The notes below the pieces were generated by a model, which saw nothing but the letters and a program-made list of their open reading frames with translations, was not told the origin of the DNA and searched no databases. Positions 31,710-43,288 of a stretch of DNA of 64,000 nt are shown in pieces; the first letter of the stretch is position 1; the number at the start of each line of letters is the position of its first letter. Source of the stretch: Pseudobdellovibrionaceae bacterium. GTDB lineage: Bacteria > Bdellovibrionota > Bdellovibrionia > Bdellovibrionales > UBA1609. The translations under genes were made by a program, and so were the position numbers. Location of the stretch: positions 1 through 64,000 of the forward strand of contig CANEZP010000016.1 of the NCBI GenBank assembly GCA_947444305.1, in the 5' to 3' direction.

Positions 31710-32369
31710 TTACTTCGCGAGCGTCGTTAAGATCTGCACCGCGGGCGCTTGGCTTAACGAAATCTGCAGAAAGTACTTCTTGCCGGCCTGGAGGTTGTAC
31801 TCGACGGCCTTAAAGATCTTTGCGCAGCCCGTTTGCATTTCGAATCTCGCGGCGCTCACCGTCTTCGCCCCGGCTTCATCGCCGGGGTTTACTTCGACCA
31901 AATCCAGCCATACCTTTGAACCCATCGCGACCCGGTAAAGCCCGTCTTCTTTGACTTCCATCGCCGCGAGTCCGGCATGAACGACGTCACCCTTCGCCGG
32001 TTCTTTCTCCGGCTTGATGAGCAAACTGACTTTTTTCTGAGGGTAAAGCGTAAGGTTAATCTTTTTATCGGAGGGAAGCTCGGTCGTCGACTTATCGTCC
32101 TGCGCACCTTGGATGCGTATTTCTTTTTTATCCCACTCGGCCATTTGGCGCGCGAGCGGAATCTTGAAATTCTCGCAACCGCCTTCCATTTCGGACATAG
32201 GGCGCGCGGCTTGTTTCGGCTCGCCCATTTTCATGTCGGTCGCCTTGCCCATTTTGCCCGCGGCAAGCGCTTCGACCGCAAGGTTCGCGGCAAAAAGCAG
32301 AATCGTTACGCCTAAAAAAGAAAAAGCCGCTCGCGCGGCTTTTTGCTTACTCTTTGTCGTCGTCTTCAT
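31710..32369 (-). CDS. Exported protein overlapping the infC end and terminator
   Basis: The 219-residue product starts at ATG 32369 with GAAGAAG upstream, inside the last codons of infC. A Lys-rich n-region (MKTTTKSKQKAARAAF) leads into a hydrophobic h-region ending EALAA|GKM. The signal-peptide codons QKAARAAFSF coincide with the infC terminator hairpin and its U-tract. The mature part has CENFKIPLARQMAEW, then a beta-rich domain with TLYPQKKVSLLIKPE and YFLQISLSQAPAVQIL. The family was not recognised. No initiation codon lies between the hairpin and the signal peptide, so the overlap is needed for export. Confidence 0.7.
   Translation of the reverse strand: MKTTTKSKQKAARAAFSFLGVTILLFAANLAVEALAAGKMGKATDMKMGEPKQAARPMSEMEGGCENFKIPLARQMAEWDKKEIRIQGAQDDKSTTELPSDKKINLTLYPQKKVSLLIKPEKEPAKGDVVHAGLAAMEVKEDGLYRVAMGSKVWLDLVEVNPGDEAGAKTVSAARFEMQTGCAKIFKAVEYNLQAGKKYFLQISLSQAPAVQILTTLAK
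32312..32344 (-). terminator. Intrinsic terminator of infC, inside the next gene's signal peptide codons
   Basis: On the minus strand a 9-bp stem (32336-32344 with 32323-32331, AAAAGCCGC/GCGGCTTTT) with loop GCGA is followed by TTTTTCTTTTTT. It starts 3 bp after the infC stop codon. It is a textbook rho-independent terminator, yet it is also coding for the exported protein read from 32369. Confidence 0.88.
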
Positions 32370-33027
32370 CGGCTTCTTCTTCAAGAGGCTCGAGCGGGGC
32401 TTCGGGCTTAGCGTTGGTCTTGAGGTACTCTTTCACCTTTACGGGATCGGGAGCGAGCAACAAGAATGCCTGCTTACCTTCAACGCGCGGTGAAGTTTCA
32501 ACGATGGCGATGTCGATCAACATTTTCTCGACCCGGCGAAGTGTCGCAATACCGTATTCTTGGTGCGCAAGTTCGCGGCCCATGAAACGTAAGTTCACCT
32601 TTACCTTGTCGCCTTCAAGCAAGAAACGTCTGGCGTGACGAACCTTCACTTCGATGTCGTGAGCGTCGGTTCGCGGGCGAACTTGGATCTCTTTGACCGT
32701 GATGACGGTTTGCTTTTTCTTGGCTTCTTTATCTTTTTTCTTATTCTCGTACTTGTACTTGCCGTAATCCATGATTTTGCAAGTCGGCGGAGTTGCGGTG
32801 GGCGCAATTTCTAACAAATCCAAACCACGTGACTCGGCGATGGCCAGCGCTTCACGCGCGCTCATCACTCCGACCATGGTACCTGCTTCGTCAATCAGGC
32901 GCACTTGTTGTGCGTAGATCTCGCCGTTGACCCGTAGGCCGCCGTCATCGCGTTTACCTTTACCGAATTTACCGCGATCGCCTGGACGGCCGCCGCCACC
33001 CGGGGGTGGACCTTTAAATGGACGAAT
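32347..33027 (-). CDS. infC: Translation initiation factor IF-3, ATT start
   Basis: The 226-residue product has a Pro/Gly/Arg-rich N-terminal extension, then the IF3 N-domain (RVNGEIYAQQVRLIDEAGTMVGVMSAREAL), LDLLEIAPTATPPTCKIMDYGKYKYE, and the C-domain (VKEIQVRPRTDAHDIEVKVRHARRFL), ending in a long acidic tail (EPLEEEADEDDDKE). AGGAGG (33034-33039) lies 6 bases before ATT at 33025-33027. No ATG, GTG or TTG fits, and ATT is the known infC start in other bacteria, where IF3 represses itself. The start overlaps the thrS end by 14 bp. Confidence 0.95.
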   Translation of the reverse strand: MRPFKGPPPGGGGRPGDRGKFGKGKRDDGGLRVNGEIYAQQVRLIDEAGTMVGVMSAREALAIAESRGLDLLEIAPTATPPTCKIMDYGKYKYENKKKDKEAKKKQTVITVKEIQVRPRTDAHDIEVKVRHARRFLLEGDKVKVNLRFMGRELAHQEYGIATLRRVEKMLIDIAIVETSPRVEGKQAFLLLAPDPVKVKEYLKTNAKPEAPLEPLEEEADEDDDKE

Positions 33028-35005
33028 GTTTTGCCTCCTGGTTTGAGTTTTTAACGGGCACCGGAAAAACACTTTCCAGCTTCCGTTCTTTGATCTCGTG
33101 GTTCAGCTTTTCCACAAACTCCGGGAAAGGCATGCCTTCGATAATCGTTCCGTTCTTGAGACGTACGGAAACGGTTCCGTTGTCTTTTTCTTTATCACCT
33201 AAAATCAACATGTAAGGCACCTTCTGCATTTGGGCCTCACGAATTTTGTAACCAAGTTTTTCGCCGCGTTCGTCGACGAACGAGCGTACGCCTGCCGCTT
33301 TTAGCTCGGCCTGCAGTTTATTTGCGTACTCGATTTGCCGGTCGGTAATGCTAAGCAAAGCGACCTGCACCGGGCTCATCCACGTCGGGAAGTGACCGGC
33401 GGTGTGCTCGAGATAAACCCCGATGAAGCGCTCGAGCGAACCTAAGATCGCGCGGTGAAGCATCACGGGCTGGTGCTGGGTGTTGTCCTCGCCGATATAC
33501 GAAAGGTCGAACGCCTTAGGCATATTGAAGTCGAGTTGCAAAGTACCGAGCTGCCAAGGGCGCTTCAGCGAATCGATGAACATGATGTCGAGCTTCGGAC
33601 CGTAAAACGCGCCGTCGCCGGCGTTGATCGTGTACGGCAGATTCAAACCCTTGAGCGCTTGCTCGAGCGCACCTTCGGCACGATCCCAAACATCGTCGGC
33701 ACCCATGCGCTTCGCCGGTCTGGTCGAGAGGAAGATCTTGTAATTGTCCATGCCGAGGGCGTGGTAAACCTCGTTCAGCATCGACATGAAATTTGAAATC
33801 TCAGTCTGCATTTGGTCGTAACGGCAGAAGATGTGCGCGTCGTCCTGGCAGAATGTTCTTACGCGCATCAAACCGTGCATGACCCCGCTGCGCTCATAGC
33901 GGTGCAAACGACCGAAGTCGGCGATGCGCCACGGAAGCTCGCGGTACGATTTGCGCTCGGAATTGTAGAGCACGCAATGGCCCGGGCAATTCATCGGTTT
34001 AAGCGAAAAATCGCGCTCGTCAACTTTGGTGAAGTACATGTTCTCGCGGTAATTTTCGTAGTGACCCGACTGGTGGTACAGGTCGACGTCGTAAACTTGC
34101 GGCGTGATGACTTCGCTATAATTGTATTTCAGATACTTATCGCGCATGAACGCCTGGAGCTGATTGTAAATGATCGAGCCCTTGGGCGTGAAGAACGGGC
34201 TGCCGGGCGCAAGTTGGTGAAAATGGAAAAGACCTAAATCTTTGCCGAGCTTGCGGTGGTCGCGCTTTTTCGCTTCTTCGATATTGTGAAGATGCTCTTC
34301 TAATTCTTTTTTGTCGTTGAAGGCGGTCGCGTATACGCGCTGGAGTTGCGCGTTTTTTTCGTCACCGCGCCAGTAAGCTCCGGCTAAGCTCAAAACTTTG
34401 AACGTTTTGATTTGACCCATGCGCTGCACGTGCGGGCCTTTACATAAGTCGAACCACACCGGTCCCTGCTTATAGATACCGACCGTAGTCTCACCCTTCG
34501 CCGCGAGGTCGCGAATAAGCTCGGCTTTGAAGCGCTCGCCCATCTTTTCGAAAGTTTCGATGGCTTTCGCGATCGGCCAATCTTCGCGCACGACTTGCTC
34601 ATCGCGCTTAACGATTTCACCCATGCGCTTTTCAATCTGCACGAGATTTTCGGGCGTGAACGCAAACGGTGAATCGAAGTCGTAGTAGAATCCGTTTTCG
34701 ATGACGGGACCGATCGTCACTTTCACTTCGGGCCACAATTCTTGAACGGCTTGTGCCATCAAATGGGCGCCCGAGTGGCGGATCACATCGATCGACTCCG
34801 CATTTTTTTGCGTGAGGATCGTCACCTTCTGCCCGTCTTTGAGTTTGGTGCGCAGGTCGAGCACTTCCGGATTGCCCTCGATCTTACCGCCGAGCGTGTC
34901 CTTGGCCAAACGCGGCCCGATCGACTCGGCCACTTCGAGAATCGTGGGCTCATGGTCAAAGGACTTCACTGAATTATCAGGGAGAAAAATTCGCACTTCG
35001 CTCAT
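33014..35005 (-). CDS. thrS: Threonyl-tRNA synthetase
   Basis: The 663-residue protein has an N-terminal TGS domain (MSEVRIFLPDNSVKSFDHEPTILEVAESIG), the editing domain with RHSGAHLMAQAV (HxxxH), and the catalytic core with MNCPGHCVLYNSERKSYRELPWRIADFGRLHRYERSGVMHGLMRVRTFCQDDAHIFC. The ligands are Cys of MNCPGH plus two His. The C-terminal anticodon domain includes SPVQVALLSITDRQIEYANKL. Length is normal. No Shine-Dalgarno precedes ATG 35005; a 33-codon leader ORF ends 5 bases upstream, so initiation may be coupled. Confidence 0.97.
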   Translation of the reverse strand: MSEVRIFLPDNSVKSFDHEPTILEVAESIGPRLAKDTLGGKIEGNPEVLDLRTKLKDGQKVTILTQKNAESIDVIRHSGAHLMAQAVQELWPEVKVTIGPVIENGFYYDFDSPFAFTPENLVQIEKRMGEIVKRDEQVVREDWPIAKAIETFEKMGERFKAELIRDLAAKGETTVGIYKQGPVWFDLCKGPHVQRMGQIKTFKVLSLAGAYWRGDEKNAQLQRVYATAFNDKKELEEHLHNIEEAKKRDHRKLGKDLGLFHFHQLAPGSPFFTPKGSIIYNQLQAFMRDKYLKYNYSEVITPQVYDVDLYHQSGHYENYRENMYFTKVDERDFSLKPMNCPGHCVLYNSERKSYRELPWRIADFGRLHRYERSGVMHGLMRVRTFCQDDAHIFCRYDQMQTEISNFMSMLNEVYHALGMDNYKIFLSTRPAKRMGADDVWDRAEGALEQALKGLNLPYTINAGDGAFYGPKLDIMFIDSLKRPWQLGTLQLDFNMPKAFDLSYIGEDNTQHQPVMLHRAILGSLERFIGVYLEHTAGHFPTWMSPVQVALLSITDRQIEYANKLQAELKAAGVRSFVDERGEKLGYKIREAQMQKVPYMLILGDKEKDNGTVSVRLKNGTIIEGMPFPEFVEKLNHEIKERKLESVFPVPVKNSNQEAKHSSI

Positions 35006-35009
35006 GCGA

Positions 35010-35111
35010 TTACAATTTTAAGGCTCGGCCGGAAACGGCCAGCCTCGCTGTCGTCACATTGATGGTGATGATGGAGGCTACGCAGGAGATGGAAGGGGAC
35101 ACAAAAATCAT
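35010..35111 (-). CDS. Putative thrS leader peptide, 33 residues
   Basis: ATG (35109-35111) opens 33 codons ending in TAA at 35010-35012, four bases before the thrS ATG. The peptide includes ASIITINVTTA, with three Thr codons (ACC, ACG, ACA) and four Ile codons near the middle. The frame is too short for usual gene calling. No strong ribosome binding site precedes it. The placement and codon content suggest a regulatory leader peptide, but a chance open frame is possible. Confidence 0.4.
   Translation of the reverse strand: MIFVSPSISCVASIITINVTTARLAVSGRALKL
35022..35079 (-). promoter_or_regulatory. Mutually exclusive hairpins before thrS
   Basis: On the minus strand AGCCTC (35074-35079) can pair with GAGGCT (35041-35046). 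Alternatively GGCTGGCCG (35036-35044) pairs with CGGCC-G-AGCC (35022-35031) around a 4-nt loop, forming a strong hairpin right before the thrS start. The two share GGCT, so only one can form at a time, the arrangement of an attenuator. The downstream stretch is UUAAAAUUG, not a U-run, so control of translation is more likely than of termination. Confidence 0.45.
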
Positions 35112-35337
35112 TACGAAAACTTAGCCCCGAATGACCCTCTAAGTCAATGTTTAGCCCGTTTACCGCGGCTCGTCTGGGGCGCGACCTTAGACGGAAGTGC
35201 GCCGTCGAACGCCCGCTCGAGCTGCTTTTCGTCACCCCGCTTCTCTCCTTGGCCGCCTTATTTGCGCGCACGCGTCCGGGGCCGGGTGCAGGCCTTGCAA
35301 TTCTGGTCTGGCTCAACCAATTGAAACGAGATTCACG

Positions 35338-36189
35338 ATGCGCGTCTTCCTCAGACTTGCTCTGGCTTCGAGCTTGTTCCTCGCCGGCCCATTATGGGCG
35401 AAGCAAGACCGCGAGGCTACCCCGCTTCCCGCTCCCGTCGCGGAATGCCAGCGGGTGCTCGAAAAGCAGCCGGCGAAAATCGACCGGTCCAACGTCCGCG
35501 CGTTCGTCGATAATATCAAAAACGAAAACCTGGCGGGCCTCGACTCAAGATCTCTGATTAACCTTATCAACCTGAAATTTCCCGAAGTCGTTTCAACGAA
35601 TCTCTCCCGCGCGTTCACGCCCGACAGTTCGGCGGCATTGGCGGAATCTTCGGTTCGCCCTGCAACCCTCGCGGACATCGCGCAGATCGAGGCGATTGCC
35701 GACACCCTGCAAATGAAACCCGGCGAAACCGGCGATCGCGGTTTTCTTTCCAGTCGCATCACGACGGACGAGCTTAAGGAAATCATCAAGGATGGTTTAT
35801 CATTCGTCTACGAAGACGAATCCGGAATTCAAGGCTTCACGCTGATGTTCTCTTGTAAAAGCGAATACGGCCGTTGGAAATCGGGCTGGCTGGAGAAAGC
35901 TTCCTACGTCCCCGGCATCGAAGTGAATACGATCATCAAGCCCGTAATCGCGCGCGCGATCGCGACTCGGGCCGGTGCACCGATCGGGATCGGCCACAAA
36001 ATGCGCACGTACATCGCGCAGTGGTTGGCCGCGCACGGGGGCGCAACCGTGATCGGTAAGATTTCGTTGTTCCCGCTCAACGACACGTCGATGAAGGTTC
36101 ATTTAAAAGACGGCTTTTCGATTATCGGGAATTACGTGGATGATCATCTGCAGTCTTGGGCGATCGTCGCGAAGCCCGCGGGATTTTGA
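35338..36189 (+). CDS. Exported GNAT-like acetyltransferase
   Basis: The 283-residue product starts at ATG 35338 with a signal peptide (MRVFLRLALASSLFLAGPLWA). After a linker and a helical part (about 30-95), residues about 105 onward look like a GNAT fold: VRPATLADIAQIEAIADTL (beta1-alpha1), IQGFTLMFSCKSEYG, then YVPGIEVNTIIKPVIARAIATRAGAPIGIGHKMR and VHLKDGFSIIGNYVDDHLQSWAIVA. The classical acetyl-CoA loop (Q/RxxGxG/A) is unclear. Acetyl-CoA is not expected in the periplasm, so either the protein is injected into prey or it binds another ligand. This is speculation. Confidence 0.6.
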   Translation: MRVFLRLALASSLFLAGPLWAKQDREATPLPAPVAECQRVLEKQPAKIDRSNVRAFVDNIKNENLAGLDSRSLINLINLKFPEVVSTNLSRAFTPDSSAALAESSVRPATLADIAQIEAIADTLQMKPGETGDRGFLSSRITTDELKEIIKDGLSFVYEDESGIQGFTLMFSCKSEYGRWKSGWLEKASYVPGIEVNTIIKPVIARAIATRAGAPIGIGHKMRTYIAQWLAAHGGATVIGKISLFPLNDTSMKVHLKDGFSIIGNYVDDHLQSWAIVAKPAGF

Positions 36190-36348
36190 TCCAGCGTCGG
36201 CGAAAGAAGTCGCACCGACTCCTTGGGTCCGAACAAAATACCTCAATTAACGTTATTTATACGCGACGTCTCCTGTCTGGAAAGGAAAAGCTGCGTTAAA
36301 TTTTAATGATGGATGGAATCGCAAGGTTAACGCGAGCGCTACGAACCA

Positions 36349-36372
36349 CCCCCCACTCCTGGCAGTGGGGGG
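36349..36372. repeat. Dispersed GC hairpin, copy 1, at the end of the act operon
   Basis: CCCCCCACT (36349-36357) pairs with AGTGGGGGG (36364-36372) around CCTGGC, followed by CGCCT. A close relative, CCCCACT-CCTGGG-AGTGGGG followed by AGCGCCT, lies at 55346-55367. Both come directly after operon-ending stop codons. It may help termination or protect mRNA 3' ends. Confidence 0.65.
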
Positions 36373-36377
36373 CGCCT

Positions 36378-37571
36378 TTAGTAAACGACGTGGTGGTGGT
36401 TGGATTCGAATTGGCGTGGGTCTTTGACCGGGACGATGGCGTGCGTCCCGAGGAAGCGCATGACCATGAACAGGAAGGCGCCCGCGAAGCCGAGCCAGCA
36501 GCCGATTTCCGGGAAACCGAAGATGACCGATTCCGAATTCAAGTTCGGGTAGATCAACCAGTAGAGATCCACGTACTGCATGACCAGGATCAAAATCGAA
36601 ATGGCGGTCAGGTGCATGTGCGAACGTTTCGCCCAACGGGGCAGCAACGCCAAGAACGGAACCACAAATTTAAAGAGCAGCAACGAGGCGGTCACGTAGA
36701 GCCACGAACCGGTCACGCGGGGCATGAAGAAGGTCGTTTCTTCCGGCAAGTTGGCGTACCAGATCAACATGTACTGTGAGTACGCGATGTAGGCCCAGAA
36801 GACGGTGAACGCGAAAAGGTATTTACCTAAATCGTGCAAGTGATTGTCGTCGACGAAGCCGGTGAGTAGGCCCCGGCGCATGCAGTAGATGACCAACAAA
36901 ATCATAGTCGCCATCGTGCTTTGGAAAAGGCCCGCGAAAAGATAAACGCCGAAGATGGTGCTAAACCAGTGAGCGTCTAAGCTCATGATTAAGTCCACGC
37001 CAAAGAGCGAGAACGAAAGCGCGAAGATCAACAAGAAGCCAATCCCCCACCCGACTGATTTTTGGGTGATGGATTCGTCGCCGGTCTTATCTTGCTCGAT
37101 CGAGCCGCCGATCAACTTGTGTTTGAACAGCAACCAAAGCCCGAAGAAGACGACCAACCGGATCACGAAGAAAGTCGTGTTGAGGTAAGCGGCCTTGTGT
37201 TGCAAAAGTGCGTCGGCCGAAACGACTTCGGGACGCATCCATTCGTACAAAGACTTACCACCGAAGATCAAAACCAAAGCGCCGGCGAAGGCAACCGGCA
37301 AGTACGCGGTCAGAGCTTCGGAGAATCGGCGAACGTTAACGACCCAACCCGACTTCGTCACGAAGTTGATGGCCGCGAAAAACAAACCGCCGATGCCGAG
37401 GATGAAGAAATAAAAATAGCCCGTCAGGTAGGCGTGCCAGGCGCGTTCGGCGTTTGTCATCAAGGCTACGGCGAACGAGGCGACGCCGATAAACATCAGC
37501 ACGGCGCTTAAGGTCTTCGTCCCGCTTGAGACGATCAACGGACCCGGATTTTTGTGAGCGACATCTGCCAT
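36378..37571 (-). CDS. actF: Alternative complex III subunit ActF
   Basis: The 397-residue membrane protein has about ten helices. Its features are AWHAYLTGYFYFFILGIGGLFFAAINFVT, WLLFKHKLIG and FVDDNHLHDLGKYLFAFTVFWAYIAYSQYMLIWYANLPEETTFF, typical of the ActF-type quinol:cytochrome c oxidoreductase subunit, related to the ActC/NrfD fold. It is the last gene of the actABCDEF operon. The complex oxidises quinol in the inner membrane and hands electrons to a soluble cytochrome or oxidase. The start has AGAGGAT upstream. Confidence 0.88.
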   Translation of the reverse strand: MADVAHKNPGPLIVSSGTKTLSAVLMFIGVASFAVALMTNAERAWHAYLTGYFYFFILGIGGLFFAAINFVTKSGWVVNVRRFSEALTAYLPVAFAGALVLIFGGKSLYEWMRPEVVSADALLQHKAAYLNTTFFVIRLVVFFGLWLLFKHKLIGGSIEQDKTGDESITQKSVGWGIGFLLIFALSFSLFGVDLIMSLDAHWFSTIFGVYLFAGLFQSTMATMILLVIYCMRRGLLTGFVDDNHLHDLGKYLFAFTVFWAYIAYSQYMLIWYANLPEETTFFMPRVTGSWLYVTASLLLFKFVVPFLALLPRWAKRSHMHLTAISILILVMQYVDLYWLIYPNLNSESVIFGFPEIGCWLGFAGAFLFMVMRFLGTHAIVPVKDPRQFESNHHHVVY

Positions 37572-37582
37572 TTTACTATCCT

Positions 37583-38176
37583 CTATTTACTAACGGATTG
37601 TTTCTGCAAGGACCGGACGTAATTTACAACGGCCCAGCGAGTGTGTTTTTCATCAGCGGGAATTTGCCCACCGTACGAACCCATCACGCCTTTACCCATC
37701 ACGATCGCGTAGTGGATGCGACCGTCTTTATATGCGCGCGCTTCGTCCGACACGAGGACGCGAGGTTTGATCGGCATGTGCGGCGTGATCGAACCGTCGT
37801 TGTGCCCGGCGGCCCCGTGGCAAAGCGCGCAGTAAATATCGTACTGCACGCGGCCCATGGTCAGCGTTTCGGGTGACATATCACCGGCGAGCGGATTGAC
37901 GTCGTTGTCGGCACCGGCGGGATCGGTCGCGTATTTGTAGGGAGTGTGCCCACGCGAGACCGTATGCGCGGGCGGCGTGCGCATCTGAACGACATCACCC
38001 TGTGCAGGATCCCAGTCCTGCGATTTGATGCTGACTTGATCCATCATGTTTTGGTTCAGCTCGATGTTCGTTTGGTTCTTGCTGGCATTACAACCGGCAA
38101 TCATGAATGCCAACGCGCAAACGCCGGTCAGGGCGGAAGCACTTTTCGAATTGAGCGTGGTGATAAGATTCTTCAT
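37583..38176 (-). CDS. actE: Alternative complex III cytochrome c subunit ActE
   Basis: The 197-residue product has a lipoprotein signal (ALAFMIAGCNAS, lipobox Cys). A long linker leads into one haem-binding motif, YDIYCALCHGAAGHNDG. A downstream MGKGVMGSYGG gives a Met axial-ligand candidate. This fits ActE, the mono-haem lipoprotein of alternative complex III. The gene starts right after the actD stop. Haem attachment would be by the ResB/CcsA system encoded just upstream. Confidence 0.88.
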   Translation of the reverse strand: MKNLITTLNSKSASALTGVCALAFMIAGCNASKNQTNIELNQNMMDQVSIKSQDWDPAQGDVVQMRTPPAHTVSRGHTPYKYATDPAGADNDVNPLAGDMSPETLTMGRVQYDIYCALCHGAAGHNDGSITPHMPIKPRVLVSDEARAYKDGRIHYAIVMGKGVMGSYGGQIPADEKHTRWAVVNYVRSLQKQSVSK

Positions 38177-38717
38177 TTAAAACTCCGCCCTTTTGATATC
38201 GACGGCACCGTGGTCTTTAAAAATTTGTTCTAATTGCGGACCGTTGAACCCTTTGGATCCCTCGGGAACCCAGATTCCGAACTTGTGCGAGCTGAGCGCG
38301 GGATCAATCACCGGCGGATCGACTTGCGGCAGACCGCAGATGAAGATCAGCGCACCGACCGAAGCGAGCGCCGCGAAGAGGATCGTGCATTCGAACATGA
38401 TCGGCACGAACGCGGGCAGTGACCACATCGGTTTACCACCGATGATGAGCGGCCAATCAACGGCCGAAGCCCACCACGTGAACCAAGTTCCGAAACTGAA
38501 ACCGATCAGACCAAAAACGAAAGTGACCCAAGGGATGAACGAGCGCGGAATCCCGATCGCGTCGTCGATTCCGTGCAAGGGGAAAGGCGAGATCGCCTCG
38601 ATTTGCGTGAAACCCGCTTGGTGAACTTTAGATGCGGCCGCGACCATTTTGTGTTCGTCATCCCAGATACCGGCCACTCCCCGGCGCGAGGCCGGGCGGG
38701 CGAAGGCGATGACTTTC

Positions 38718-38731
<14 letters not shown>
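38177..38731 (-). CDS. actD: Alternative complex III subunit ActD (DUF3341)
   Basis: The 184-residue protein has an N-terminal soluble part ([41 protein letters not shown]), then two transmembrane helices ([20 protein letters not shown] and [22 protein letters not shown]), and a cytoplasmic tail. This is the DUF3341/ActD pattern. ATG 38731 has AGGAGG before it and overlaps the actC end by 14 bp; the longer frame was not chosen. It is a small membrane anchor subunit of the complex. Confidence 0.9.
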
Positions 38732-40081
<1,350 letters not shown>

Positions 40082-40082
<1 letters not shown>

Positions 40083-43000
40083 TAGTGACCTCCTTCAGCG
40101 GGCACGGGCGGCGGCGGCGGATCGTGCGGCGGCATGGGCGGATGACCGGGACCTGCATCGGGCGGCGGCGGACCTCCGTGCGGCAAAGGCTCCCCTGCCC
40201 GACCGTGAGCCGGAGGTTTGTGCCCTTGGCCGTGCGGCGCGCCGGGTACGGGTTCGTGAGCCGGAGCCCATTTCAACTTATCCGTGTTACGAACTTTGAC
40301 TTGGTAGCGAACCGAAGGCTTCACGTTCAATTCATCGAGCAAAGCGTAAGCCTTGGGCGAATCAAATTCACCGCGAACCATGGACTTGGTGTCGTTCAAA
40401 TCACCGAACGTAATCGCGTTCGACGGACAGCTTTGTTGGCAGGCGGTCTTCACGTCACCGTCACGAAGTTTAGTGTCGTGAACTTTGTGTTGCGCTTTGA
40501 CGCCGCGGATCCGGTGAATACAGAACGTGCACTTCTCCATAACACCGCGGTTACGAACCGTAACTTCGGGATTCAACGCCATTTGGCGCGGAGCTTTGAC
40601 GTCCGTGTAGCTGAACCAGTTAAAGCGGCGCACTTTGTACGGACAGTTGTTTGAACAGTACCGCGTACCGACGCAGCGATTGTAGATCATGTCGTTCGTG
40701 CCTTCGTCCGAGTGAACGGTGGCGATAACGGGGCAAACCGTTTCGCAAGGCGCGTTGTCACAATGCATGCACAGCAAAGGCTGATGCACGACATCGGGAT
40801 CTTCGGGCGTACCGACGTAGTAACGATCGATGCGCATCCACTGCATTTCGCGGCCGTCGATTACGTTTTTGCGGCCGACGCTGGGAATGTTGTTTTCGGA
40901 TTGGCAAGCGATCACGCACGAACCGCAACCGGTGCAGGTGTTCAAATCGACGACCATGCCCCACTTGTTGCCGTTGTACTTGTGCTCGGACCACATGGTG
41001 GTGAGATTGTGACGGTGCACTTGGCCGCCGGGATCTTTCATGTGATCGGCGAGAGTTTCTTCGACGACGATTTGCCGGCCTTCCATCACGTGGTGACCTT
41101 GGGTGACGGCAAGCTCCGTCTTTTTCGTTAATGGCTTGATCGTCGTTTCGAGACCGGCGGTGACCGCGCGTCCGTCGACCCACTGGGCGAGCGTCATCGC
41201 GTTTGCGCCGATGCCGTCGACGACCGAACCACCGCCGTTGCGACCGTAACCGAAAGCCACACCAACGACGCCGTCGGCTTGACCGGGTTGAATGTGCGCG
41301 GGCAATTCAATTTTTTTATCGCCGACGGTCAGTTGAACGTACTGGCCTTCTTTGATTTTAAGCTGAACCGAATCTTTGGGCGAAATACATGCGTAGTTGT
41401 CCCAGCAAACTTTGGTTACGGGATCAGGTAGCTCTTGCAGCCAAGGCACGTTAGCCAAACGGCCGTCGCCGATCCCGACTTTTTGGTAGATCGCCAATTC
41501 AAAGCCCGCGCGCTTAGCGGTCGGCTTCACGTTCGCTAAGGTTCCGGAAGCGAGCGAGCGTGAGCCGGCGGCGCCGTTCGAACCCTGCATCACGCCCGTT
41601 TGCAAAACGTCGTTCCAGTAATCTTCGAAGTTTAACTTGCCGGTTTTGCCGGCGCTTAACGTTTTCCAGCTGGCGTTGAGGTAATCGTACCAAGTTTCGG
41701 AAGCTTTCGCTTTGGCCGAACCTTTGCCCGCACCTTTAAGCCAAGCGAGCATGCTGTCTTGAAACGCGCGCGTGTTGTGTAAAGGCTGAATCGTGGGCTG
41801 CTGAATGCTGAGCGCGCCACCGAGCGATTGCATATCGCCCCAGTTTTCGAGCGCGTGGTGATCGGTCGCGACGTAGTCGGCCAATCGAGCGGTCTCGTCA
41901 TTGCGGTCGCCGGTGGTGATGATCATTTCGACGTTGCTCAAGGCTTCGCGGAATTTCGAATTTTCGGGCAACGAGTACACCGGGTTCGAACCATGAACGA
42001 TGAGGGTCGTGATTTCTTTTTTGTTTAAAGCGTTGAGCAAATCGCCGATCGGAGCGCCGCGCGTGACCGAGCGGCCCGTTTCGATCGTTTTGCCGTCATT
42101 TTCTAAAACGGCGTTCAAGAAATTGGCCGCGACCTGCAGAGCGACGCCGAAATCTCCGTCGGCCGACATGCCGCCCGCGAGAACCAGCGATTGACCTTTG
42201 TTCTTCCAAAGTTCTTCGGCAACTTCGCCGACGTTGATCCCGAGATCTTCGCGTGACTTCGAAAAACCCGAGAGGACGCGAACGACGCCGTCATCGCTTG
42301 CGTAGCGTGACGATTTACGAACGACGACCAATTCGTGCAACAAAGCCATAACGACGTCGAGCGATTGCGACGGACGAATGCGGTAGCGCTTATCGGCGTT
42401 ACTGCCCGTCAACGACATCAAAGATTCGAAAACGACGAGCTTGCTCATGCCCTCGGTCGATTTTTTGCGGCCCATGGCGAACTGGCGCTGGAAAGTGACC
42501 GGCGCGACCCAAGTGCCTAAGAAATCGTTATTGATCGCAACCACGATCTTTGCGCGATCGATATTGTAATTCGGAATGGTCGCGCTACCGTACGAAGCTT
42601 TTTGTGCTTCGACCAACGAGGCGTACGAAACGTCATCATATTGATAAATCTTGCCGCCGAAGGCGCCGGCGAATTCTTCCATCAGGGCTTGGGTCGTGGG
42701 CGACGAGTGATTGTGCGTAAGCAAAGCAACTTTGCCTTTGCCCAATTGCTCGGTCACCGCTTTATCGAGATCTTCCCAACGGGCGTTGATGATTTCGCGG
42801 TTCGTGCGGTTTTTATTCTGAAGATTGCGCTTGGGCGCGGTGTAACGATCGGGATCGTAAAGGCGCAAGATGTCGGCGTGCGCGCGGGAGGACATGGATC
42901 CCATGTTCGCCGGGTGATCGGGGTTACCTTCGATTTTGATCGGGCGACCGTCGCGGGTCGTAACTAAAATCCCGATCGCTTCCATCCCATCAACGAAGGA

Positions 43001-43288
43001 CGAGGCGTAGTAATTCGGTAAGCCATGAACGATGTCTTGCGGCTTTTTCGCGTAAGGAATGATCTTTTGAGCGGGCCGGCGCACGCAACCGAAAGAGGTC
43101 AGCGCGAGCGAAGCGCCCATCAGCTTTAAGAAGTCGCGGCGGGCCGTGCCGCCGACGCCGTCGCCTGATTGCAGCGGGCTCGTCCGAAATTCTTTCTCGG
43201 CAAATGTTAAAAACTCGGGATCTTGGCGCCACTGTTCTAAGCTCAGCCAAGGTTTGCCAGACGGTTTATTAGAAGAAGTTTGATCCAT
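40082..43288 (-). CDS. actB: Alternative complex III iron-sulfur subunit ActB
   Basis: The 1068-residue protein has a twin-arginine signal ([20 protein letters not shown]), a molybdopterin-oxidoreductase-like domain lacking the cofactor in known complexes, and a ferredoxin-type domain with four cysteine clusters. The clusters are [36 protein letters not shown] with the upstream CVG, and [10 protein letters not shown] with CQQSC. Known ActB holds 3[4Fe-4S] and one [3Fe-4S]. A His/Pro/Gly-rich tail of about 60 residues ends it and looks unusual for the family. It sits on the periplasmic side, passing electrons to ActA/ActE. Confidence 0.93.

Follow-up and report, generated by a model that had tools for sequence, protein, structure and literature searches.

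The thrS-infC locus and its leader region

In this study, we analyzed a 64,000-nucleotide stretch of DNA from a Pseudobdellovibrionaceae bacterium (positions 1 to 64,000 of contig CANEZP010000016.1; hereafter the window), in which thrS and infC are preceded by a short open reading frame. The features listed first all lie on the reverse (-) strand:

32347..33027 (-): infC, overlapping the 3' end of thrS; AUU start (33027-33025) behind AGGAGG, the two within 33025-33039 in the 3' end of thrS
33014..35005 (-): thrS, threonine--tRNA ligase with TGS domain
34991..35009 (-): weak terminator-like hairpin over the thrS start, then ATTTTT, from a scan of the window
35010..35111 (-): leader ORF of 33 codons; predicted leaderless, with the mRNA 5' end at or next to its own ATG
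35020..35046 (-): hairpin GAGGCTGGCCG-TTTC-CGGCC(G)AGCCTT, -17.8 kcal/mol alone; absent from congeners G001 and G003
35049..35054 (-): Thr codons T20 and T21 (ACG ACA), 49 and 46 nt before the A of the thrS start
35064..35066 (-): Thr codon T16 (ACC), 61 nt before the A of the thrS start
35074..35079 (-): AGCCTC, alternative partner of GAGGCT at 35046-35041 (P about 0.42)
35119..35124 (-): -10-like CTAAGT, a weak match, with a spacer of 17 nt and 7 nt ahead of the leader ATG
35142..35147 (-): -35-like TTGACT of the predicted leader promoter; in relatives at the same place relative to the leader ATG

The thrS product is a ThrRS (TIGR00418, 718 bits) whose closest named relative belongs to a Bdellovibrionaceae MAG (65%), the next reaching about 50%. 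The infC start is AUU or AUC after a Shine-Dalgarno (SD) sequence in many relatives, and infC of E. coli likewise begins with AUU. On the other side of thrS, an ORF without a Pfam or NCBIfam match (35197-36189, +) separates it from a gene set (36378-43288, -) which we take to resemble alternative complex III; in several relatives thrS directly follows the apparent last gene of an alternative-complex-III-like set.

The leader ORF (35111-35010) translates as MIFVSPSISCVASIITINVTTARLAVSGRALKL*. We confirm, as the initial annotation had it, that this 33-codon ORF ends 4 bases before thrS (TAA, then TCGC, then the ATG at 35005), and no SD-like motif was found upstream of that ATG. The window leader is atypical in that it carries three Thr in 33 codons and has no Thr in its last 12. 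The leader promoters, here and in relatives, are consensus matches; in the window, spacers of 16-18 nt fit about equally, and a stricter generic scan called no promoter at the leader. A transcription start downstream of the leader, which had been named as evidence against its role, is not what the DNA predicts, the predicted start being the leader ATG itself.

The last 50 nt before the window thrS are strongly folded (z -3.5) and the whole 186-nt leader is not unusual in structure (z -0.41). Two mutually exclusive pairings had been proposed at this site. Both exist, the alternative pairing with the probability listed above and the lower hairpin stem with about 0.57 in the ensemble, and the lower half of the hairpin does compete; the apical GGCCG/CGGCC helix, however, stays in both folds (P 0.94-1.0). 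Similarly, the absence of a U-run holds for the large hairpin but not for the weak one on the thrS start (35009-34991), which runs into ATTTTT. By geometry, a ribosome stalling at T21 would open the large hairpin, with about 33 nt of unoccupied RNA before the AUG; the free RNA has an energy of -25.5 when T16 occupies the A site and of -9.6 when T21 does. Neither an Rfam family nor the T-box covariance model matched window positions 33000-39000 (Rfam at E up to 1) or the corresponding sequences of 10 relatives (Rfam at gathering score), and an operator of the E. coli ThrRS type was rejected as the window loop is TTTC and not anticodon-like.

Occurrence of the leader among relatives

We searched 140 genomes of the order, a set taken as Bdellovibrionales by inference from the ThrRS matches; thrS was present in 129 and its 5' region could be read in 127. 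In 74 of the 127, an ATG-initiated ORF with 8 or more codons stops at -4 to 6 nt relative to the thrS start. Mini-ORFs that have two or more Thr among their final 20 codons and stop at most 30 nt before thrS are found in 76 of the 127 genomes, belonging to 35 of 60 genera and eight families (f8, 45/62; f1, 21/42; f5, 4/5; f7, 2/2; f3, f4, and f9, 1/1 each; f10, 1/11). Families f2 (0/1) and f6 (0/1) have no such leader, and a leader with two Thr codons is missing from 51 of 127 when counted by genome and from 25 of 60 when counted by genus; in some genomes (such as G022, G034, and G011) a coupled ORF without Thr codons is present.

Examples from relatives are MRMQISTNTTTSF, MFISKTAISMTTSF, MSDSRATANITTTSTTTGFRAS, MKQWHHEIISTLASTTIETSIATTF, and MRFCSSTALLSNKPNFLTVTTVTVVKTTTF, and the two congeners whose 5' region could be read have MSFLSHEQSLISSTTVTIF and MIFRLAHSQLFSTVTVS (read from the promoter-proximal ATG). 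The peptides barely align, their common features being the Thr codons and their place. Conservation of the Thr codons and of both stems had been suggested as a check on the leader; the codons recur in the 76 genomes, whereas the window hairpin is absent from G001 and G003. Among three regions from a sister order of the class, one (L333) has the clear leader MFFIQNAKHTTTMTTRS, another ends in LTTH but lacks an ATG close by, and the third has no leader. No Thr tract was seen in 17 regions from other classes of the phylum, in some of which the starts are uncertain. In most other-class genomes (G143-G214) the ThrRS match begins at about residue 70, the TGS domain seemingly being missing, and the regions read from these genomes have no Thr leader.

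Threonine codons and their reading frame

When compared with dinucleotide shuffles, the genus-weighted frequency of a leader ORF is 0.758 versus 0.266, that of a leader with at least two Thr is 0.508 versus 0.039 (highest of 200 shuffles, 0.124), and that of a leader with at least three Thr is 0.320 versus 0.009. Thr amounts to 15.2% versus 5.4% (z 7.7) and is the only strongly enriched leader residue, followed by M (2.7) and S (2.2), with |z| at most 2.7 for all others. Moreover, ORFs picked by promoter spacing alone, blind to Thr, were obtained from 68 genomes of 30 genera; 57 of these 68 contain at least two Thr, and in their last 12 codons ACN makes up 20.7% of the triplets in frame versus 3.3% and 2.3% in the other two frames (p 6e-6 and 8e-6). 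The restriction of ACN to the ORF frame indicates that decoding is kept rather than base composition, and the use of all four Thr codons among the leaders indicates that the amino acid is kept rather than one DNA motif. These results support the earlier claim that thrS is preceded by a leader ORF whose Thr codons are functional; by comparison with relatives, both the ORF and its Thr codons are more than chance.

In a control set of 30 genomes, we looked for ORFs of 8 or more codons that stop at -4 to 6 nt relative to the start and found one at thrS in 25 of 30, at hisS in 1 of 26, and at ileS in 2 of 28, a contrast favored by the SD preference with which the hisS and ileS starts were picked; pheS was left out because its start calls were unreliable. 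That synthetase genes here use leaders of this kind in general was rejected since hisS and ileS are nearly without an adjoining ORF and none of those present is rich in the cognate residue.

Stop-start geometry and the predicted leaderless start

The following positions refer to the 35 genera selected for at least two Thr. At positions -2 to -5, counted back from the stop, 40-49% of the residues are Thr, and the last residue is Phe in 37% or Ser in 25%. Most of the 35 genera have a gap of -1 (TAATG) to 6 nt between the leader stop and thrS. The median distance to thrS is 16 nt for the last Thr codon (at most 24 nt in 25 of 35 genera) and 38 nt for the first (at least 32 nt in 26 of 35, which leaves at least 20 nt free). 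The latter figure is based on a waiting ribosome covering about 12 nt ahead of its A site. Programmed frameshifting or read-through into thrS was rejected because the frame of the leader relative to thrS varies by genus (gaps of -1, 0, 3, 4, 5, 6, and 18). In several f8 genomes with wider gaps, a second ORF of 3-4 codons overlaps the leader stop (TAATG) and ends 3-7 nt before thrS in a relay-like manner, as seen by eye in G100, G102, G104, G105, and G094 (loci L142, L155, L167, L160, and L162).

An SD-like tetramer precedes thrS in 10 of 127 genomes and is absent from 117; GGAG-type SDs are found at infC, directly 3' of thrS, in many of the loci scored. For the 80 leaders containing two or more Thr, the best promoter scored at least 9 in 52, and in 30 of these its -10 element ended 6, 7 or 8 nt ahead of a leader ATG. 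In genus g37, which is represented by many complete genomes and is probably Bdellovibrio, the typical promoter is TTGACC-17-TACTAA/C-7-ATG. Because the predicted promoters put the 5' end at the leader ATG, the thrS transcript looks leaderless, starting at the mini-ORF. The hisS genes of G001 and G000 (L269 and L271) have a -10-like motif about 8 nt before the ATG and no SD, so that leaderless mRNAs may be common in this group.

RNA structure before thrS

The strong fold in the last 50 nt of the window does not extend to its congeners (z -0.2 in G001 and 0.9 in G003), and the mean over genera other than g37 is -0.12. Switchable hairpins, put forward in the initial annotation, are therefore not supported as a general mechanism, and a conserved RNA switch outside g37 was rejected; the window hairpin looks like a separate, species-level addition. 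Conserved alternative hairpins leading into an intrinsic terminator with a U-run were not found in the last 50 nt before thrS outside g37, the window having only the weak terminator-like site on the thrS start. The proposal that control acts on translation rather than by an intrinsic terminator is supported.

Genus g37 differs, with a mean z of -2.30. In 20 of its 23 genomes there is a stem, 5 bp or longer, with a 3' arm that ends 10-13 nt ahead of the thrS ATG; it comes in at least three different, covarying sequences (GGTCG, CTCCGG, and GCTCG types), and the mean stem score peaks there at 7.6-8.7 versus a shuffle mean of 1.1. In this genus the hairpin is therefore under selection. A tRNA-like operator was rejected in g37 since the loops differ, share no sequence, and include no anticodon-like loop. 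A start-hiding structure that a waiting ribosome could open is possible in the window and in g37 and absent elsewhere.

Discussion

As far as sequence comparison can establish it, a Thr-codon mini-ORF lies before thrS in this group. We consider it somewhat better than an even prospect that this mini-ORF is a leaderless Thr-coded leader peptide translationally coupled to thrS, through which the supply of Thr-tRNA sets ThrRS synthesis. Transcription would begin at the leader's own ATG, where ribosomes would initiate, decode the run of Thr codons, and terminate at a stop adjoining or overlapping the SD-less thrS AUG; the same ribosome would then re-initiate on thrS. The level of Thr-tRNA would thereby set the decoding rate of the Thr codons and, with it, how often thrS (and infC) is translated. 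We infer the leaderless start, the completion of the ORF, re-initiation, and sensing, the first three from the promoter spacing, the missing SD, and the stop-start adjacency, which can be read from the DNA, as can the ORF and its frame-specific Thr codons. Against this explanation count the 51 of 127 genomes without a two-Thr leader, the coupled ORFs lacking Thr in G022 and G034, the single case among 11 in f10, the 17 other-class regions with no Thr tract, and the sparse Thr codons of the window leader. The window species may have a modified version of the leader, in which an added 12-codon tail would fold into the hairpin that a ribosome at T20 or T21 would open.

The direction of such control deserves separate consideration. 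A ribosome pausing on the last Thr codons would sit over the thrS start and reduce thrS expression, while one at the first Thr codon, or at T21 of the window melting the hairpin, could raise it. Exposure of the thrS start by Thr starvation, as initially proposed, is thus geometrically possible in the window, but in most relatives the last Thr codons are so near thrS that a ribosome stalled on them would block the start. A search for thrC, considered with ilvB as a further target of such leaders, gave scores over the cut-off in 2 of 30 genomes (ilvB in 0 of 30) and no match at E 1e-20 in the window's own genome; the bacterial class probably consists largely of Thr auxotrophs. Since the adjacency and the loss of the SD would otherwise have no role, and since thrC is mostly missing, we lean slightly toward a threonine gate, in which no thrS is made without Thr-tRNA and which would suit organisms mostly lacking thrC; the homeostatic direction we place a little below even. 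A gate would amount to positive feedback on an essential gene, which is unusual for a synthetase, and a distant first Thr codon (26 of 35 genera) leaves room for direct initiation, in keeping with the reverse direction. In its strictest form, a gate free of RNA structure by which Thr-tRNA switches on both ThrRS and IF3, control would be feed-forward and opposite in sign to known synthetase attenuators; this we put forward tentatively, as possible rather than probable.

The principal alternative, which has the direction of the initial proposal and follows the logic of leaderless polycysteine leaders, is a translational attenuation relieved by starvation, in which a ribosome at the Thr codons would free the thrS start, by masking a hairpin arm or by halting traffic over the start, so that low Thr-tRNA raises ThrRS. 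Negative feedback is the usual direction of synthetase leaders such as pheM-pheST and the T-box and speaks for this alternative, as do the melting of the window hairpin by a ribosome at T21, the space left free by the first Thr codon in 26 of 35 genera, and the covarying g37 hairpin. However, conserved structure is lacking outside g37, thrS has no SD for direct initiation, in 25 of 35 genera the last Thr codons are no more than 24 nt away from thrS, and the stop-start adjacency would have no role. We regard attenuation as a real possibility but a doubtful one. Plain coupling, whereby the leader merely feeds ribosomes to an SD-less thrS and its Thr codons sense nothing, would explain the Thr-less coupled ORFs kept in G022, G034, and G011 but not a frame-specific enrichment confined to Thr, and appears improbable. 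That the window ORF arose by chance, as its three Thr in 33 codons and weak -10 might suggest, is very improbable given that its place, promoter spacing, and stop distance match those of G001, G003, and many other genera. Least probable of all is that the A/C-rich repeats work at the RNA level whether or not they are decoded, either enhancing translation or serving as a protein site: CA repeats are known to enhance leaderless and leadered mRNAs (PMC9031893), yet the ACN frame test makes this unlikely, ACN occurring only in the ORF frame though that frame varies relative to thrS, with the third position free.

For the coupled, Thr-decoding leader that we favor, IF3 itself may matter. Leaderless initiation is hindered by IF3 according to a table in PMC9031893, and re-initiation is hindered by it according to PMC2268962. 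These reports suggest the IF3 level as a second input, fed back on its own operon through the leaderless start and re-initiation.

If correct, this would show that a leaderless ORF with stop-start coupling suffices for amino-acid sensing at a synthetase gene, with no need of a T-box, a terminator or a protein operator, and that the arrangement is kept across a bacterial order. The direction of control in probable Thr auxotrophs becomes directly testable. Structure-based searches would overlook such leaders, in keeping with the lack of Rfam matches in the window and 10 relatives. A literature search, with most subscription journals outside its coverage, found no published thrS leader peptide in this group.

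With respect to known systems, pheM-pheST and thrL-thrABC are ribosome-mediated transcription attenuators, and the thrS leader, as they do, encodes a short peptide with cognate codons immediately ahead of its operon. Unlike them, it has no conserved terminator or antiterminator, its stop adjoins the gene start, and its mRNA is predicted to be leaderless. In E. coli, the thrS operator mediates autoregulation by ThrRS through a tRNA-like hairpin; the thrS-infC order is the same here and the g37 hairpin is similarly placed, just before about -12, whereas the g37 loops vary and sensing would be by codons, not by ThrRS binding. In the mycobacterial polycysteine case, ribosomes reportedly block a structure that hides the downstream ribosome binding site. 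These leaderless polycysteine short ORFs (Canestrari et al. 2020, Mol Microbiol 114:93, as described in PMC9031893) resemble the thrS leader, itself predicted to be leaderless, in being small ORFs that open an operon and carry codons for a single amino acid, whose supply is proposed to govern elongation speed and thereby how much the following gene is translated. The thrS leader differs in coding for Thr and not Cys, in its synthetase target, and in its phylum, and also in having no conserved structure over the start, an SD-less target, and stop-start adjacency; the in-frame tract of one amino acid is conserved in relatives and sparse in the window. The conserved uORF of Corynebacterium ilvBNC was likewise found by comparative genomics as a leader peptide enriched in cognate residues, although transcription attenuation of a biosynthetic operon is what is proposed there (PMC10272879). 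Taken together, the thrS leader resembles the polycysteine leaders and the amino-acid attenuators, minus a conserved RNA switch.
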